NCBI GenBank assembly: GCA_002683825.1
Contig: NYUD01000072.1
Location: 1 to 64,000 of the forward strand
Reading direction: 5' to 3'
Source: Planctomycetota bacterium
Lineage (GTDB): Bacteria > Planctomycetota > UBA1135 > GCA-002686595
Length of the DNA: 64,000 nucleotides
Shown: one piece after another, positions 53,043-61,213 of the stretch
Layout: each line of letters starts with the position of its first letter
Numbering within the stretch: the first letter of the stretch is position 1
Notes under the pieces: generated by a model
Told to the model about the DNA's origin: nothing
Seen by the model: the letters and a program-made list of their open reading frames with translations, nothing else
Databases searched by the model: none
Translations under genes and position numbers: made by a program

Positions 53043-53663
53043 ATGGGAAGCAGCAAGAAAAAGCGGCGCGAGAAAAAGCGAGCCGCGCCGGAGGTCGTCT
53101 CCCGAGGGGAAGCCGGTTCGTGGTACGCCGCCAAGAGACCCGCCCTGCGCTTCCTGTTGATCGTGGGGGGCTTCATGCTCCTGTTCTACGCGATCTTCTA
53201 TACGTCCCCGCAGGACAGCCCCGGGGTCCATGCGGCGATCGAGGCCTATCTGGGGATCTACGCCTCGGTCGCGGGCTTCGTCTTCGATACCTTCGGCTTC
53301 GACGTGCGCGTTTCGAGCACGATGATCTTTCTCGAGGGCCGGGCGGTGAAGGTCGTGCGGGGCTGCGACGCGATGGAGCCGATCGCGCTCTACATCGCCG
53401 CCGTGATCGCCGTGGAGGCCGGCAACGTGCGTTCCAAGCTCATCGGTCTCGCCGTCGGCGTTTCGATGCTCGTTTTCGCGAACCTCCTGCGCATCATCGC
53501 CCTGACCTACATCAACGTGCGCTTCTCCTCGTTCTTCGACACGGCGCACCACACGGTGGGCCAGACGCTCTTCATCCTGTTCACCCTTTCCCTGTGGTTC
53601 GCCTGGGTGGTGTGGGCTTCGAGAGAGGGGAAGGAGCCTGACGATGCCGGTGCTGCCGACTAG
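53043..53663 (+). CDS. xrtH: Exosortase H-like transpeptidase (IPTLxxWG-CTERM type)
   Basis: Multi-TM; catalytic-triad-like VVRGCDAMEPIALYIAAV (Cys), ANLLRIIALTYI (Arg), DTAHHTVGQTLFI (His). Subtype inferred from linkage to the VPTVSQWG protein. Confidence 0.82.
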   Translation: MGSSKKKRREKKRAAPEVVSRGEAGSWYAAKRPALRFLLIVGGFMLLFYAIFYTSPQDSPGVHAAIEAYLGIYASVAGFVFDTFGFDVRVSSTMIFLEGRAVKVVRGCDAMEPIALYIAAVIAVEAGNVRSKLIGLAVGVSMLVFANLLRIIALTYINVRFSSFFDTAHHTVGQTLFILFTLSLWFAWVVWASREGKEPDDAGAAD

Positions 53664-54225
53664 GCGTATCGCGATCTTCGCCCTGCATTTCGTCCTGATC
53701 TACAGCGCTCTGATCCTCTCCTGGCCGCTCCTGCGTCCGGTCTACCGACCGCTCTACTGCACCTTCGGAAACCTCGTTTTCCAGGGCGGCAGGGCCTCCA
53801 CCACCTTCCGTGAGCGGGAGGGGGACGAGGAGCTGGACATCGCCCTGCGACTCGAAAAGCGCGGCAGCGGCGTCTGGGCGGAGATGGAAACCAATAGCCG
53901 CCTCATCGGCTACCTGCCCACGGTGAGTCTGATCGCCTTCGTGCTGGCCACCCCGATCCCGTGGAAGCGCCGCCGCAAGGCGCTTCTCCAGGGGCTCCTT
54001 CTCGTCAGTCTATTCGTGGCCCTGCGCATGGCCATTCCCCTGTGGCGCGACTTCAGCCGTCCCGATGCGCTGCAGGTCTACCACCCGGGCCCACCGGGGC
54101 GGTGGTTTCTGGGAATCCTCGAACGGGCCTTCCTGAACGCTCCGGCCAGCTGGTTTGTGGTCCCCATCTTCGTCTGGGTCGCGGTCGCGTTCCGTCGCGC
54201 GGACTGGGAAATCGTGGAAGAGTGA
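53644..54225 (+). CDS. Exosortase H-associated membrane protein (putative)
   Basis: Overlaps the xrtH 3' end by 20 nt; N-terminal TM, periplasmic-like segment, further TMs. Confidence 0.65.
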   Translation: MPVLPTRRIAIFALHFVLIYSALILSWPLLRPVYRPLYCTFGNLVFQGGRASTTFREREGDEELDIALRLEKRGSGVWAEMETNSRLIGYLPTVSLIAFVLATPIPWKRRRKALLQGLLLVSLFVALRMAIPLWRDFSRPDALQVYHPGPPGRWFLGILERAFLNAPASWFVVPIFVWVAVAFRRADWEIVEE

Positions 54226-54249
54226 CGGTCTGCAACGGGCCACCAAGGG

Positions 54250-54270
54250 GACGTTGCACCCTGCAACGTC
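54250..54270. repeat. 9-bp perfect hairpin downstream of the exosortase operon
   Basis: GACGTTGCA-ccc-TGCAACGTC; no T-tract. Confidence 0.75.
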
Positions 54271-54435
54271 AAGGTAAGTGCCTGTTGTTTCAATGCGTTA
54301 GGGCGTTGGAAAGAACTTCCGGGTGCAGGGACCGTGTATTCTGCACCACCTGACCCGGGAGCCGTTTCCTGCGGGGCCCGGTGGAATACACCCAACTTAT
54401 TATAGATAAGGCACTTATGTGCTTCTTGCCTGGCC

Positions 54436-54451
54436 TGGCCCGGGGTTTGCA
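54436..54451 (+). promoter_or_regulatory. Sigma-54 (-24/-12) promoter upstream of the IPTL-CTERM gene
   Basis: TGGCCCG-GGGT-TTGCA; one mismatch to TGGCACG-N4-TTGCW; GG-N10-GC exact; about 88 nt before the ATG. Confidence 0.6.
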
Positions 54452-54538
54452 CTAAACCCCCAGGCGCAGGGCCCTCCCGGGATTCGGCCTTGCACACCCT
54501 TCACCCCCACAAAAGCAAGTAACGAGAGCTAGCTCACC

Positions 54539-55228
54539 ATGAAGAAGACCCTGATATTCGCAACCTGCCTCGCCGTCGCCTCGACGGTCGCGGCCCAGAA
54601 GAACGCAACAGCTCCCCCGACGCTCGCCTCCGGCAGCGGTACCGACCACACGGGACAGACGATCGTCCCCGCGACGGTCATCTCCTCGAGCACCTTCGAC
54701 GGCAGCACAGAGACGGTCGTCAGCGTCGCCGGCGAGCAGAGCTGGGACCTCCAAGGCGATCCCTCCAACACCGTTCTCTCCCTCGACATCGGCGCGGGCG
54801 AGGCCGTCACGGGCCTCGGCTGGGACGTCAGCTGCACGACCGTCGGCGGTAGCTGGTTGAACGAGGCCCAGTTCGCGTTCGGCCCCAACGGCGGCGCCGT
54901 CGAAGTGTTCCTCACTCCCTCCCCGACGGGCGGTCCCGGCACGGAATCCAACTCGAGCCCCGTCCTCATTCTCGCTGATCTGGGAATTCCGGACATCGTC
55001 TGCCCGGATGGAACGCTGCTGATCGAGCTCGACGAGACCTTCGACGACGCGGCCGACGCGGTCGACGCCGACTGGACAGCCGGTGGGGTCACCATTCAGC
55101 ACACCGGCGGCGGCGGTGGCGGCGGTGTTCCGACGGTCAGCCAGTGGGGTCTCATGATCCTTACAGCCCTCCTGTTCGGCGGTGTCGTCTGGCGTAGCGT
55201 CAGCCGCAAGACCGCCACGGCGAGCTAG
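54539..55228 (+). CDS. IPTLxxWG-CTERM sorting-domain surface protein
   Basis: N-terminal signal peptide MKKTLIFATCLAVASTVAAQ; C-terminal Gly-rich linker + VPTVSQWGLMILTALLFGGVVWRSVSRK (motif, TM, basic tail). Confidence 0.88.
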   Translation: MKKTLIFATCLAVASTVAAQKNATAPPTLASGSGTDHTGQTIVPATVISSSTFDGSTETVVSVAGEQSWDLQGDPSNTVLSLDIGAGEAVTGLGWDVSCTTVGGSWLNEAQFAFGPNGGAVEVFLTPSPTGGPGTESNSSPVLILADLGIPDIVCPDGTLLIELDETFDDAADAVDADWTAGGVTIQHTGGGGGGGVPTVSQWGLMILTALLFGGVVWRSVSRKTATAS

Positions 55229-55282
55229 TCTTCGCTCGCTCCGGTTTCTTACCCGAGGTTGGGGGAAACCGAGTTCATCCGC

Positions 55283-55323
55283 ACGCGCCCTGGTCCTGGC
55301 GGCCAGGGCGCGTTTTTTTTTTT
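55283..55323 (+). terminator. Strong Rho-independent terminator after the IPTL-CTERM gene
   Basis: ACGCGCCCTGG-tcctggcgg-CCAGGGCGCGT followed by 11 T. Confidence 0.93.
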
Positions 55324-55348
55324 GCCCGTGCTCTGCCCGAAGCGGCCC

Positions 55349-57094
55349 GTGGGTACGATCACACGCGCCTTGGATTCTCGCGTTCTTCCTGGGGTCGCAA
55401 TCGCCCTGGCCCTGGCCCCCGGCTGCGGGGGGTCCTCCACCCCGCCCCCGGTGTATGAACCGGCGAACTCGGCGAACTCGGCCGACGAGGCCAGCGGCTC
55501 CCCCTGGTTTCGCGAGGTGCACGAAGAGGTCGGGATCGACTTCGTTCACGTGTCCGACGCGGGGGGAGCGCTGCGACGCTTTCCCGAGATCATGGGTGGC
55601 GGTGCGGCACTGGCCGATCTCGAGGGCGACGGCGACCCCGACCTGTACCTGGTGCAGTCCGGGGAACTGGATGGGCCCGCGCCCGGCTCGCCGGTCAACC
55701 GGCTCTTTCGAAATGGGGGCGCAGGTCGGTTCACCGACATCACCGAAGAGAGTGGCAGCGGCGATCCCGGGTACGGCATGGGGGTCGCGCTGGGGGACGT
55801 CGACAACGACGGTGCTCTCGACCTCTACGTCACGAACGTGGGGCCCAACGTGCTGCTCTTGAACCGCGGCGCCCTCACCTTCGAGGACCGCTCGGAACGG
55901 GCCGGGGTCGACCAGCGGGCCTGGAGCACCAGCGCGGCGTTCTTCGACCTCGACGTCGATGGCCGGCTGGATCTCTTCTGTTGCAACTACGTCGACTGGT
56001 CGCTCGGGGGGGAGCTGGCGTGTTCGACCGCGGCGGGACGCCCCGACTATTGCAGTCCCAATAGCTACGATGCACCGGTAGCCGATTCCCTCTATCGCAA
56101 CGAGGGCGGCGGGCGCTTCACGGATGTTTCCGCGGCGGCGGGTCTCTTCGCGCGACGGGGGAACGGACTGGGCGTGGTCTGCGGCGATTTCGACGGGGAC
56201 GGCGCGATCGACATCTTTGTCGCCAACGATCAGATGGAGAACCACCTCTGGCACAACGGGGGCGATGGGACGTTCACCGACATCGCGGGAGCCAGCGGCT
56301 GTGCGGTCGATCAGCACGGCCAACCGAAGGCGGGCATGGGGACGCTGGCCGAGGATGTGGACGGCGACGACGACCTCGACGTGCTCGTCGTCAATCTACG
56401 GGCACAGGCGGATTCCTTCTTTCGCAATGAAGGCGCCTACTTCAACGACGACACGGCGGCCGTAGGGCTCGGCGGGGCGAGCCGCCCCTTTACGCGCTTC
56501 GGTGTCGGCTGGGTGGATTTCAACAACGACGGCTTCTTCGATCTCTACCAGGCCAACGGCCGCGTCGCGATATCCTCCGAGCTCCATGCGCGTAGCGACG
56601 ACCCCTACGCGGAACCCAACCTGCTCTTCACCGGCCAATCCGGTGGGCGCTTCGATGTTTCCGAACACGAAGGAGGTGTTCCTTCCGGACTTGAACTCGT
56701 GCACACGAGTCGCGCCGCAGCCTTCGGGGACATCGACGGCGACGGCGGGATGGACGTCGTCGTGGTCAATCGCGATGCGTTTGCTTACGTCCTGCGCAAC
56801 GTGGTGCCCGATCGGGGGCATTGGGCGCGATTCCGCGTGCTGGACGGCAACGGCCGCGATGCGCTGGGCGCCGAGCTGCGGATCGAGATCGAGGGGCGCA
56901 GCCTGCGGCGCGACGTGAAGTCGGCCTACAGCTATTGCGCAGCCAACGATCCACGCGTGCACGTCGGGTTAGGAGACGTCGCGAACATCCGCCGCGTGCG
57001 CGTGCGCTGGCCGGGGGGTCGTGAGGAATCCTTCGGTCCCTTCGAGGTCGACCGCGATCACATCCTGCGGGCCGGCGAAGGTACAGAGCGATGA
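55349..57094 (+). CDS. FG-GAP/VCBS repeat protein with ASPIC/UnbV domain, lipoprotein
   Basis: Lipobox LAPGC; repeated GDVDNDGALDLYV motifs; RDALGAELRIEI...SAYSYCAANDPRVHVGLG. Start moved to GTG 55349 because the terminator lies in the longer ORF. Confidence 0.88.
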   Translation: MGTITRALDSRVLPGVAIALALAPGCGGSSTPPPVYEPANSANSADEASGSPWFREVHEEVGIDFVHVSDAGGALRRFPEIMGGGAALADLEGDGDPDLYLVQSGELDGPAPGSPVNRLFRNGGAGRFTDITEESGSGDPGYGMGVALGDVDNDGALDLYVTNVGPNVLLLNRGALTFEDRSERAGVDQRAWSTSAAFFDLDVDGRLDLFCCNYVDWSLGGELACSTAAGRPDYCSPNSYDAPVADSLYRNEGGGRFTDVSAAAGLFARRGNGLGVVCGDFDGDGAIDIFVANDQMENHLWHNGGDGTFTDIAGASGCAVDQHGQPKAGMGTLAEDVDGDDDLDVLVVNLRAQADSFFRNEGAYFNDDTAAVGLGGASRPFTRFGVGWVDFNNDGFFDLYQANGRVAISSELHARSDDPYAEPNLLFTGQSGGRFDVSEHEGGVPSGLELVHTSRAAAFGDIDGDGGMDVVVVNRDAFAYVLRNVVPDRGHWARFRVLDGNGRDALGAELRIEIEGRSLRRDVKSAYSYCAANDPRVHVGLGDVANIRRVRVRWPGGREESFGPFEVDRDHILRAGEGTER

Positions 57095-58503
57095 GCCGGC
57101 GCTCCATCCTCGTTGTGGCTGCGCTGCTCTTGTCGGCGGGGGGGGGCGGCTATCTGGCCTACCAGCGGGCCGGACCCATGCCAAAGCCGCCGGCGGACAT
57201 CGAAACCCTCGACCCCCTGCTGCGCCGACGCATCGAGCAAGAGCTTGTCCGCGTCGGGAACCGTCGCCGTTCCACCCCGGCCTGGCGGCGTCTCGGCATG
57301 GTTTACGAGGCGAACGCCCTGTATGGGGATGCGGCGCGGTGCTACGAGCACATCCTGTCGGAGCGGCCGAACGACGGCGAGAGCTTGCACCGCCTCGCCC
57401 GCGTGCAGGAGCGCATGGGCGATCTTTCCCGCGCCCGTTCGACCATGGAGCGCTCGGCCCTGGCGGAGCCCGGCTATGCCGCTTCCTGGTGCCGACTCGC
57501 GCTGTGGTCGCTCGATCTCGGCGAGCACGAGGCGGGGGCGGCGGCACTCGAGAAGGCGCGTGCGTTGACACCCGATGACCCCACGATTCACTTCATCGAC
57601 GTACGCCTCGCGCTCGCGCGGCGATCGCCGGACACGGCCATCTCTCTCCTGGAACGCGGGGGGCTTCTGGAAGGAGCTCAGGCGCCGTACGGTTTTCACC
57701 TCCTGTCGAATGCCCGCAGACAGGCGGGCGATATCGAGGGGGCGGCTGCGGCCCATGCGAAGGGTGACGGCAGCCGCCTGCGTTTCTCGGACCCGTGGAC
57801 GCAAGAGATGCAGCGCTGGCAAACGGGCTATGCGGCGATGCGTCGCAGCGCCGGTAGGCACGTCCTGGCGGGGCGCTTCGCCGTCGCGCAGCAACTCCTG
57901 GAACAGGTGCTCGCCGAGGACCCGCTCGATGTGCGCAGTCTCAACATGCTCGCGGTCTGTCGAATAGAGCAGGGAGATCCGGGCGCTGCGATGGAGATCC
58001 TGACGCGGTTGCTCGCGATCGACCCCGTACATCACGACGGCGCCTTGAACTTCGTTCGCGCCCTTCTGCGCCACGGCAGCGCGGACGGCGAAGTCTCTCG
58101 CGCGGCCTTTGAGCGTTTGCAGCGTGCGCTGGAGCTGCGTCCCTCCGAGAGCATGGGGTGGCGTCTCATGGCGTCCCTCGAGGAGGCGCTAGGGCGTCCC
58201 GACGAGTCACTCGAGGCCATGGAGCGGGCGATGGCGCTCGAACCCGCGGCGACCGACATCCGTTTGAAAGCCGGCTACACCGAACTCAAGAAGGGCGCAT
58301 TCGACGATGCGCTGGAGCGCTTTCGCGGTTTGAAGGAAACCCATCCCGAACTGACCGAAGCTTGGTTCGGAGAAGTGGCGACCCTGGTGTACGCGGGACG
58401 GGCGAGCGCAGCCCGCACGGCCCTGGAAGAACTGTCGCAACGATCGGACGCGGACCCAGAGCGTCTTGCGCAACTCGCAAGCGCCGTGGCCGGGCTGCGG
58501 TGA
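57091..58503 (+). CDS. TPR-repeat membrane-anchored protein
   Basis: N-terminal TM and TPR repeats; LGMVYEANALYGDAARCYEHI resembles the protein at 8427; ATGA overlap with the upstream UnbV gene. Confidence 0.85.
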   Translation: MSRRSILVVAALLLSAGGGGYLAYQRAGPMPKPPADIETLDPLLRRRIEQELVRVGNRRRSTPAWRRLGMVYEANALYGDAARCYEHILSERPNDGESLHRLARVQERMGDLSRARSTMERSALAEPGYAASWCRLALWSLDLGEHEAGAAALEKARALTPDDPTIHFIDVRLALARRSPDTAISLLERGGLLEGAQAPYGFHLLSNARRQAGDIEGAAAAHAKGDGSRLRFSDPWTQEMQRWQTGYAAMRRSAGRHVLAGRFAVAQQLLEQVLAEDPLDVRSLNMLAVCRIEQGDPGAAMEILTRLLAIDPVHHDGALNFVRALLRHGSADGEVSRAAFERLQRALELRPSESMGWRLMASLEEALGRPDESLEAMERAMALEPAATDIRLKAGYTELKKGAFDDALERFRGLKETHPELTEAWFGEVATLVYAGRASAARTALEELSQRSDADPERLAQLASAVAGLR

Positions 58504-58608: not shown

Positions 58609-59943
58609 TTACTCTTCTCCGTCCTTGTCCGGGTGCTCTCGGGACGGCATCGCCGCGAGCTTGCGCCACAGGGTCGAGCGATCGATGCCGAGTGCCTGCG
58701 CCGCTTTCCCCCGATTGCCGCCGGCGGCCTCGAGAGCGCTCAGAATCGCGTTTTGCTCGATCTCGCGCAGCGTAAGGGCTTGCGTCGCGGACTTGTGTTG
58801 TTCCGTGGACGTCGCACCGCCCAGGGATGACTGGAGGTTCATGTGCTGGGGCTCGATCTTGCCTTCGCCTGCAAAGACGAGGGCGCTTTGCACGACGTTC
58901 TTCAGCTCGCGCACGTTGCCGGGCCAATCGTGCCCCTCGAGCACGGCTACCGCTTCAGGTGTGAATCCGGGCGCTCCTTCCGAGAGGAAGTGCTGGACCA
59001 GGTCGGCGATGTCCTCCCGTCTTTCGCGCAGAGGGGGCAGAAAGAACTCGATGCCACGCAGACGGTAGTACAGATCTTCGCGGAGCTTGCCGGATCGCAT
59101 CATCTCGGCCGGAGGCTGATTCAGGGCGGCGAAGAAACGCACCGAAACGCGGCGGCTTTTCTGCATACCGACGGGGCGCACCTCGCCATCGTCGATGACG
59201 CGCAAGAGCTTGGCCTGGTGCTCCATGGCCATCGAACTCAGCTCGTCCAGAAACAACACACCGCCGTCGGCCGCTTCGAGCAGGCCGACGTGATCCTGGA
59301 CCGCGCCCGTGAAGGCGCCCTTCTTGTGTCCGAAGAAGTGGCTCTCGAAGAGCTCGGGAGGCGTGGCCGCGCAGTTGTGGGCGATGAAGGGGGTGTCGGC
59401 GAACTTGCCGCTCTTGTGGACGGCCCGGCTGACCACTTCCTTCCCCGTACCCGTCTCTCCCGTGATCAAAAGGTTCACGTCACAACGCGCTGCGAGCGTG
59501 ACGAGGTGACGAACCTCCACGAGCGCCGGGCTGCGGCCGCGGATCGTGGCTGCGGCGCTCTTCGGCTCGGCCTTGTCGGAACGCGGCGTCAGGAGGGCCC
59601 TCGCCACGGCGTTGGAAATCGACTCGGGGGTGAAGGGCTTCAGGACGTAGTTGTGGGCGCCCTGGCGGATCGCCTCGACGACAAGTACCACGTCCTCCTG
59701 CACCGAGACGACGATGACCGGTAGCTCGGGCCATCTCTGGCGGACGCGGCTGAGCAGGCCCATTCCGTCGAGCTTCGGCATCTGCAGGTCGCTCACGATG
59801 AGATCGGGCACCTGCTTCTCGATGCAGAGCAGGGCCTCGATGCCGTCGGTCGCGGTGCGTACGGCGTGTCCCTCCCCTTCCAGGGTGAGTCGTGCGTACT
59901 CGAGACTCGAAGGATCGTCGTCGACAGCCAGGATCAGCGCCAT
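58609..59943 (-). CDS. Sigma-54-dependent response regulator (NtrC family)
   Basis: Receiver LAVDDDPSSLEYARL...LIVSDLQMPKLDG; AAA+ GETGTGKEVVSRAVH, GAFTGAVQDHVG; C-terminal Fis-type HTH. Confidence 0.95.
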   Translation of the reverse strand: MALILAVDDDPSSLEYARLTLEGEGHAVRTATDGIEALLCIEKQVPDLIVSDLQMPKLDGMGLLSRVRQRWPELPVIVVSVQEDVVLVVEAIRQGAHNYVLKPFTPESISNAVARALLTPRSDKAEPKSAAATIRGRSPALVEVRHLVTLAARCDVNLLITGETGTGKEVVSRAVHKSGKFADTPFIAHNCAATPPELFESHFFGHKKGAFTGAVQDHVGLLEAADGGVLFLDELSSMAMEHQAKLLRVIDDGEVRPVGMQKSRRVSVRFFAALNQPPAEMMRSGKLREDLYYRLRGIEFFLPPLRERREDIADLVQHFLSEGAPGFTPEAVAVLEGHDWPGNVRELKNVVQSALVFAGEGKIEPQHMNLQSSLGGATSTEQHKSATQALTLREIEQNAILSALEAAGGNRGKAAQALGIDRSTLWRKLAAMPSREHPDKDGEE

Positions 59944-59944
59944 G

Positions 59945-61213
59945 TCATCCGGTCGATAGTTTGGGCCGCGAGTCGGGTAAGGCAATTCGGAACGATGCGC
60001 CCGCATCGCAGGGAGAAAGGGAGAGGCTTCCCCCTAGAGATTCCATGAGACTGCGCGCCAGGTAAAGCCCCATCCCGTGTCCATTCGACTTGGTGGAATG
60101 TCCCGGTCGGAAGATGTGGCTTTCCATTCCGACGGCGATCCCAGGTCCCGTGTCGGTAACCAGGATTTCAATGCCGTGGCTCGCTTTTACTACGTGCACA
60201 CCCACCTCGCCTGTGCGATTCATCGATTCGGCTGCATTGAGGAGCAGGTTCGAAAGGACCTCTCTCAACACCTTGGCGGGCACGCGCAGGGCTTCTTCCT
60301 GCTCCCAGACGACGCGGCAACGAACCTCCGGATGGCAGAGCGTGAGCTCCGCGGTGGCCGCGTCCAGAACTTCGCGCAGATCGCTGTCAGCCTGCTCACA
60401 GGTCTCCGCTTGATCGTCCTGCGGCGGCTGTGCCTTCGATTTCAGGGTATCGAGGGCGAGTCGCTCGAGTTGGTCGATGGAGTCCTTCAGACCCCGCAGG
60501 GCAGCGTTGTCGCTCGCGGAGACGTCCTTGCCTCTCTCGATCAGGGAGCTGAAACCCCGCAGGCTGTGCACGGCGTTCTTGAGCCCATGACCGATGCGCG
60601 CGGTCTGGGCCCCGAGATCGGCCAGGGTCTGGGCGTCCGCGAGTTGCCCTTCGATGGCCTGCAACCTGTCTTGCTGTTCGACGAGCCGGGAAGAAAAGCT
60701 CTCCTGCCCCCTGACCCAGCTTCGCCGGACCCAGGCCGTCGCTGCTCCGACGATCACGAGGAAAGAGGTTTGCAGAACCAGGGGGGCGAGGATGTCTGTG
60801 AACCCCAGGAAGTACTGCTGGGCGAACAAGGCGAAGGCGCTCGCCAGCGTGACGCAGACCACGCTCAGAACGGAATGCCCGACCGCGGAGAGCAGGATCT
60901 CGAACCAGAAGCCGACCAAAAGGAGCGAGGTGCCGACGCCTCCCCCGAGGTAGGTCAAGACCGCCCAGGTCACGATGCCCAGCAGAGGGGCCAGTCGATT
61001 CGCGACCGGGTGCAAGGAGCGTGGCCCGGTCCGGACGAAGACGAAGGTGGCGAGGTTGATCAGGGCCGCCGCCCCGAGAACCACGAGGGACCCCGGCCCG
61101 GCCTGCAGCCACCCGGCCTGGACGTAAAGGAAAAGGCAGGCTTGAAAGAGAAAACTCGTCAAGCAGCGGAGACGAAGCCCCCGCTCGATCACATCTTGAG
61201 AAGCGTTCACCAC
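59945..61213 (-). CDS. Membrane sensor histidine kinase
   Basis: Multi-TM N-terminus; IGHGLKNAVHSLRGFSSL H-box; NLLLNAAESM, VTDTGPGI, GHGMGLYLARSLME. The ORF extension to 62044 is antisense to the sulfatase gene; GTG start near 61213. Confidence 0.85.
   Translation of the reverse strand: MVNASQDVIERGLRLRCLTSFLFQACLFLYVQAGWLQAGPGSLVVLGAAALINLATFVFVRTGPRSLHPVANRLAPLLGIVTWAVLTYLGGGVGTSLLLVGFWFEILLSAVGHSVLSVVCVTLASAFALFAQQYFLGFTDILAPLVLQTSFLVIVGAATAWVRRSWVRGQESFSSRLVEQQDRLQAIEGQLADAQTLADLGAQTARIGHGLKNAVHSLRGFSSLIERGKDVSASDNAALRGLKDSIDQLERLALDTLKSKAQPPQDDQAETCEQADSDLREVLDAATAELTLCHPEVRCRVVWEQEEALRVPAKVLREVLSNLLLNAAESMNRTGEVGVHVVKASHGIEILVTDTGPGIAVGMESHIFRPGHSTKSNGHGMGLYLARSLMESLGGSLSLSPCDAGASFRIALPDSRPKLSTG

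Follow-up and report, generated by a model that had tools for sequence, protein, structure and literature searches.

Sigma-54 control of exosortase substrates has so far been described only for proteobacterial PEP-CTERM genes. These genes were reported to form single-gene units with leaders of more than 200 nt and to co-occur with a kinase/regulator pair (PMC1569441). Their sigma-54 site preceded the start codon by a mean of 71 nt (range 23-221), the activator site was on average 63 nt upstream of the sigma-54 element, and Haft et al. (2006) found the pair of regulatory motifs only in Proteobacteria (PMC1569441). The pepA gene of Aquincola tertiaricarbonis was RpoN1-dependent, as established by a mapped transcription start and a test of rpoN loss (PMC9850573). 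For IPTL-CTERM genes, a literature search that had most subscription journals outside its reach found no paper on regulation.

We analysed a 64,000-nt stretch of the genome of an uncultured Planctomycetota bacterium (contig NYUD01000072.1, positions 1 to 64,000; hereafter the window) that carried an IPTL-CTERM gene next to an exosortase gene. A sequence-only reading of this DNA had proposed that the IPTL-CTERM gene has a sigma-54 promoter, with nested inverted repeats as enhancer sites, in parallel to the PrsK/PrsR system. The genome of the window is denoted G000, and three other genomes with orthologues of the IPTL-CTERM protein are denoted G007, G023 and G081. The features of the locus were the following:

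53043-53663, plus strand: exosortase of an XrtH/XrtX-like group by NCBIfam, under both family cut-offs
53644-54225, plus strand: small membrane protein 3' of the exosortase, with a similar neighbour in G007, G081 and G023
54250-54270, no strand: the leader's tightest palindrome, GACGTTGCA-CCC-TGCAACGTC, 9 bp with a 3-nt gap
54275-54283 and 54409-54417, no strand: outer repeat, TAAGTGCCT and AGGCACTTA, an exact 9-bp pair 125 nt apart, weak singly
54322-54347, no strand: GGTGCAG-N12-CTGCACC, candidate site for the activator, some 115-140 nt upstream of the predicted start
54334-54341 and 54384-54391, no strand: middle repeat, GTGTATTC and GAATACAC, an exact 8-bp pair 42 nt apart, weak singly
54384-54417, no strand: the two right arms, GAATACAC and AGGCACTTA, flanking an AT-rich stretch
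54436-54451, plus strand: putative -24/-12 promoter element TGGCCCGGGGTTTGCA (TGGCCCG-GGGT-TTGCA), 11 of 12 positions to TGGCACGN4TTGCW
54539-55228, plus strand: IPTL-CTERM protein of 229 aa with a signal-peptide-like N-terminus and the tail VPTVSQWG (TIGR04174, PF18203); orthologues in G007, G023 and G081
55283-55323, plus strand: intrinsic terminator closing the IPTL unit, 13-bp stem and T run
58609-59943, minus strand: NtrC-family response regulator, candidate activator, with REC (PF00072), sigma-54 activator (PF00158) and Fis-type HTH (PF02954, HTH_8) domains
59945-61192, minus strand: membrane sensor histidine kinase (HATPase_c), encoded directly 5' of the regulator gene and in the same orientation

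The exosortase scored 47.8 bits against TIGR04178 (cut-off 23) and 35 against PF09721 (cut-off 25.7), which placed it in the superfamily. Its assignment to XrtH was rejected since it scored 67.9 bits against TIGR04177, below the curated cut-off of 86; against XrtX it scored 69.9 bits (cut-off 170). Family profile searches found no match for the small membrane protein. The tail of the IPTL-CTERM protein exceeded the cut-offs of both TIGR04174 (22.5 bits against 20.5) and PF18203 (23.2 against 20.8), and this protein is a candidate dedicated substrate of the adjoining exosortase. Because it had its own terminator, the IPTL-CTERM gene was considered a one-gene unit. The 313-nt leader (54226-54538) between the exosortase operon (53043-54225) and the IPTL-CTERM gene folded better than shuffled sequences (z -3.4); a search for structured RNA gave no Rfam match in it, and a scan for sigma-70 promoters was negative.

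Several neighbouring or related genes were observed as well. Genes for an FG-GAP/ASPIC-UnbV protein and a TPR protein adjoined the IPTL gene both in the window (55259-58503) and in G007 (L014, 8342-11784), in opposite order relative to it, and they may be members of the cluster. The genome of the window encoded a second exosortase on contig C61 (L026, 6770-7420) that reached 83.9 bits against the XrtH cut-off of 86 and had its own small partner gene; the surrounding 14 kb contained no IPTL gene. In a phylum-wide search, the relatives recovered matched only the body of the IPTL-CTERM protein. One relative, read over its full length, came from another Planctomycetota family (G499; L062, 1348-2124) and ended in a PEP-CTERM-like tail, VPAPGALALLGLGGLATARRRR; by its sequence it was the same passenger with a different sorting tail.

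The best-supported new result was that the kinase/regulator pair very probably belongs to the IPTL/exosortase sorting system, since the regulator was found solely in IPTL-bearing genomes and since the gene order of G023 pointed the same way. We searched 154 genomes of the order for orthologues, and a class-level search covered the same 154. The IPTL protein had orthologues in four of them (G000, G007, G023 and G081), with 39-44% overall identity; the regulator had orthologues in three (G000, G007 and G023), with 65-72% identity against 42% for the next best match. Thus, the regulator-bearing genomes were nested within the IPTL-bearing ones, with a counting probability of 6.7e-6 that overstates the support, since linked genes may have been inherited as a single cluster and since relatedness makes the genomes non-independent. 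The genome with the IPTL protein and no regulator orthologue, G081, was 77% complete. Kinase orthologues in G007 and G023 were 42-51% identical across the sensor part and the kinase. In G023 the genes for IPTL, kinase, regulator, exosortase and partner followed one another on a single strand, behind a site matching the -24/-12 consensus at 10 of 12 positions. In G007 the kinase and the regulator were on a contig separate from the IPTL gene, and the regulator orthologue (L059, 8135-9455, C326) was split across two frames, either by a frame error in the assembly or because the gene is broken.

All three domain models of the regulator (PF00072, PF00158 and PF02954) scored over their cut-offs and its translation contained GAFTGA; by domains, it is a complete NtrC-type activator. 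Identification of the pair as PrsK/PrsR was rejected because both proteins missed the curated cut-offs: the regulator scored 281 bits against TIGR02915 (cut-off 502.6), and the kinase 80.5 bits against TIGR02916 (cut-off 300), from the kinase part alone. The score of the regulator against the NtrC model (372 bits) was also below the cut-off (558.6), yet above its own PrsR score. No -24/-12 site was found in the leaders of the kinase and regulator genes, a point against the proposed circuit. The co-occurrence suggests dedicated sigma-54 regulation of the IPTL gene by the neighbouring pair; we infer the action of the regulator on the IPTL promoter from its membership in the system, and the linkage is an association.

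The -24/-12 match had been described with one mismatch and correct spacing, and we found it so: in TGGCCCGGGGTTTGCA the GG (54437-54438) and the GC (54449-54450) are 10 bp apart. The element was 87 nt from the IPTL ATG, a distance within the range of PEP-CTERM genes (23-221 nt; PMC1569441), and the start predicted from it was near 54462, 77 nt 5' of the ATG. The exact class TGGCMCGN4TTGCW had 4 matches in the whole 5.4 Mb genome (2 for the reversed control), and the chance of such a match on the sense strand of one 313-nt leader was about 6-9e-5. For a site of at least 11/12 with GG and GC, the chance was about 0.3-0.5% per leader, the higher figure being conservative because this background came partly from loci fetched for carrying a site. 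The window contained 9 one-mismatch matches against 7.3 expected from shuffling, which is chance level, so the motif alone proves little. A palindrome, GGGGTTT-GCACT-AAACCCC (54442-54460), overlapped the -12 element and could be an operator or due to chance.

A genome-wide search for TGGC(A/C)CG-N4-TTGCW upstream of all IPTLxxWG-CTERM genes had also been suggested as a check. No IPTL regulon emerged from the other three exact matches, which were located upstream of a tRNA gene (C114; L030, near 6850), between convergent genes (C26), and, on a foreign-looking contig (C23), before the gene of a secreted protein that had no sorting tail. RpoN was present in the genome, with two PF04552 matches. 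A second RpoN dedicated to the sorting system was rejected because two rpoN genes were usual in the family, with or without this system.

The orthologous leaders gave a mixed picture of promoter conservation. G023 had CGGCACAGGCCTTGCT (10/12) at 128 nt before the IPTL ATG, where about 0.02 such sites were expected, and the IPTL leaders of G007 and G081 had nothing above 8/12 to the consensus. Thus, G007 combined a regulator orthologue with an IPTL leader without a site above 8/12. A Fisher combination gave about 0.0006 for the two site-bearing genomes, which were chosen post hoc, and about 0.013 for all four. The leaders of the window and of G023 shared no 9-mers, and four orthologues were too few for comparative footprinting. 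In addition, the genome of the window encoded an IPTL-like paralogue on contig C3 (L028, 4641-5315), with a degenerate tail (VPTVSRRG) and beside polysaccharide-export-like genes. The composition of C3 differed from the rest of the genome, and this contig may be foreign. By the sequence-only reading, the absence of -24/-12 elements before other IPTL-CTERM genes of the genome would count against the promoter, and this paralogue, with nothing above 5/12 in its leader, went halfway towards that outcome. On balance, the proposed sigma-54 promoter of the IPTL-CTERM gene is plausible, given the good site, RpoN, the co-inherited NtrC-type activator and the 10/12 site of G023 on one side and the leaders of G007, G081 and C3 without a site on the other.

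The three inverted repeats that had been claimed for the leader were all present where they had been placed. Their supposed enhancer role was unsupported for each repeat taken individually, and wide nested pairs would be an abnormal layout for activator sites. As a group, short inverted repeats were enriched in the leader, with the wide pairs (42 and 125 nt) weak singly: there were 4 pairs of at least 8 bp within 130 nt (against 0.7 expected, and reached in 0.6% of shuffles) and 4 pairs of at least 7 bp within 20 nt (0.43 expected; 0.1% of shuffles). The repeat of the leader least likely to arise by chance, the palindrome at 54250-54270, was absent from the earlier list; a pair as good at any position occurred in 1.2% of shuffles. 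It is a candidate activator site, or alternatively a candidate 3' hairpin of the exosortase transcript. The AT-rich 22-mer at 54391-54412 was in the top 0.4% of the window. TGCA occurred 7 times in the 313-nt leader (about 0.9 expected). TGCACC was found 3 times in it (0.14 expected) and twice in the leader of G023 (0.25 expected); the leaders of G007 and G081, both without a -24/-12 site, had none. This restriction of TGCACC to the two site-bearing leaders is suggestive, several motifs having been tried. A genome-wide regulon of GGTGCA-N4-20-TGCACC was rejected because the pattern was not enriched (12 against 8 in the control).

These data can also be read in other ways. The kinase and the regulator might be ordinary NtrC-family proteins that lie near the sorting genes by coincidence, as the 13 matches to the regulator in the genome at the search threshold and the opposite orientations of the pair and the IPTL gene in the window would allow. 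However, the confinement of the regulator orthologues to genomes with the IPTL protein, and the placement of the pair between IPTL and exosortase in G023, largely refuted this explanation, and we regard it as very improbable. It is easier to imagine, if still unlikely in our view, that the pair belongs to the sorting system and acts on other promoters. The match at 54436 would then be fortuitous, and transcription of the IPTL gene would start at a promoter of another type or read through from the exosortase operon. Such sites are cheap in a GC-rich genome, one-mismatch matches in the window are at chance level, and this explanation would also fit the site-less IPTL leaders of G007 and G081 and the separate contig of the G007 regulator. 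Against it, the exact class is rare in the genome and lies here in the expected position before a one-gene unit, the sigma-70 scan of the leader was negative, and a site was also present in G023.

The inverted repeats could be mainly structural, with 54250-54270 as a hairpin at the 3' end of the exosortase transcript, the other pairs as background in a hairpin-rich leader, and no activator role. The distance from the stop codon at 54225 to the palindrome is 25 nt, folding of the leader is better than that of its shuffles, and the GGTGCA..TGCACC pattern was not enriched genome-wide. On the other hand, no T run follows the hairpin, TGCA is far above expectation in the leader, and TGCACC recurs in G023. 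We consider this explanation possible, if somewhat short of even; it concerns the repeats and is compatible with the sigma-54 promoter.

The reading that we prefer, with moderate confidence in the model as a whole, is a Prs-like sigma-54 circuit for the XrtH-like/IPTL pair, in which the promoter at 54436-54451 is combined with control by a dedicated kinase and regulator. Of its parts, we directly observed the -24/-12 site, RpoN, an intact set of activator domains, and the joint inheritance of the pair and the IPTL protein. In this circuit, the IPTL-CTERM gene would be driven as a single-gene unit from the sigma-54 promoter, and the pair at 58609-61192 would be the dedicated control circuit of the sorting system. 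The membrane kinase would sense a signal, and the phosphorylated regulator might bind one or more sites in the leader, with the TGCA-containing repeats at 54250-54270 and 54322-54347 as tentative candidates. As in its family, the regulator would then loop to the RpoN polymerase at 54436 and open the promoter with its AAA+ domain. Finally, the XrtH/XrtX-like exosortase encoded nearby would process the secreted IPTL protein. A promoter of this type would, in G023, drive all five genes (IPTL, kinase, regulator, exosortase and partner) together. With a single substrate and a dedicated kinase and regulator, such a small system would make the activating signal of exosortase substrates testable on a single promoter.

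Comparison with the described systems showed both likenesses and differences. As in the PrsK/PrsR system (PMC1569441), there was a one-gene unit with a leader of more than 200 nt, a -24/-12 element comparably far from the start codon, and a tandem NtrC-type regulator and membrane kinase confined to genomes with the sorting system. In contrast to it, the host was a planctomycete, the tail was IPTL-CTERM, the exosortase was XrtH/XrtX-like, and the kinase and the regulator were far under the PrsK/PrsR cut-offs. Motif 1 of Haft et al., compared by its TTTACA end alone, had no TTTACA counterpart in the IPTL leader (PMC1569441). The parallel drawn earlier between XrtH/IPTL and PrsK/PrsR was strengthened by the co-occurrence, even with the exosortase below the XrtH cut-off and the pair below those of PrsK/PrsR. 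Aquincola pepA (PMC9850573) likewise encodes an exosortase substrate, has a -24/-12 promoter and belongs to a genome that carries multiple rpoN genes; it differs in being a PEP-CTERM gene with a mapped start, whereas the IPTL gene here is known from sequence alone. With respect to the XrtH/IPTL-CTERM system (TIGR04177/TIGR04174), the IPTL tail was over its cut-off and the exosortase aligned across the whole XrtH model, although it scored under the XrtH cut-off and about equally on XrtX, and here one candidate dedicated substrate was encoded next door. The proposed circuit would work like the Prs circuit and is a non-member by curated models. We tentatively suggest, while leaning slightly to the contrary, that a sigma-54/NtrC circuit for the XrtH-like/IPTL-CTERM pair arose in Planctomycetota independently of PrsK/PrsR; if so, enhancer-dependent control of exosortase substrates would be a recurring solution that extends beyond Proteobacteria.
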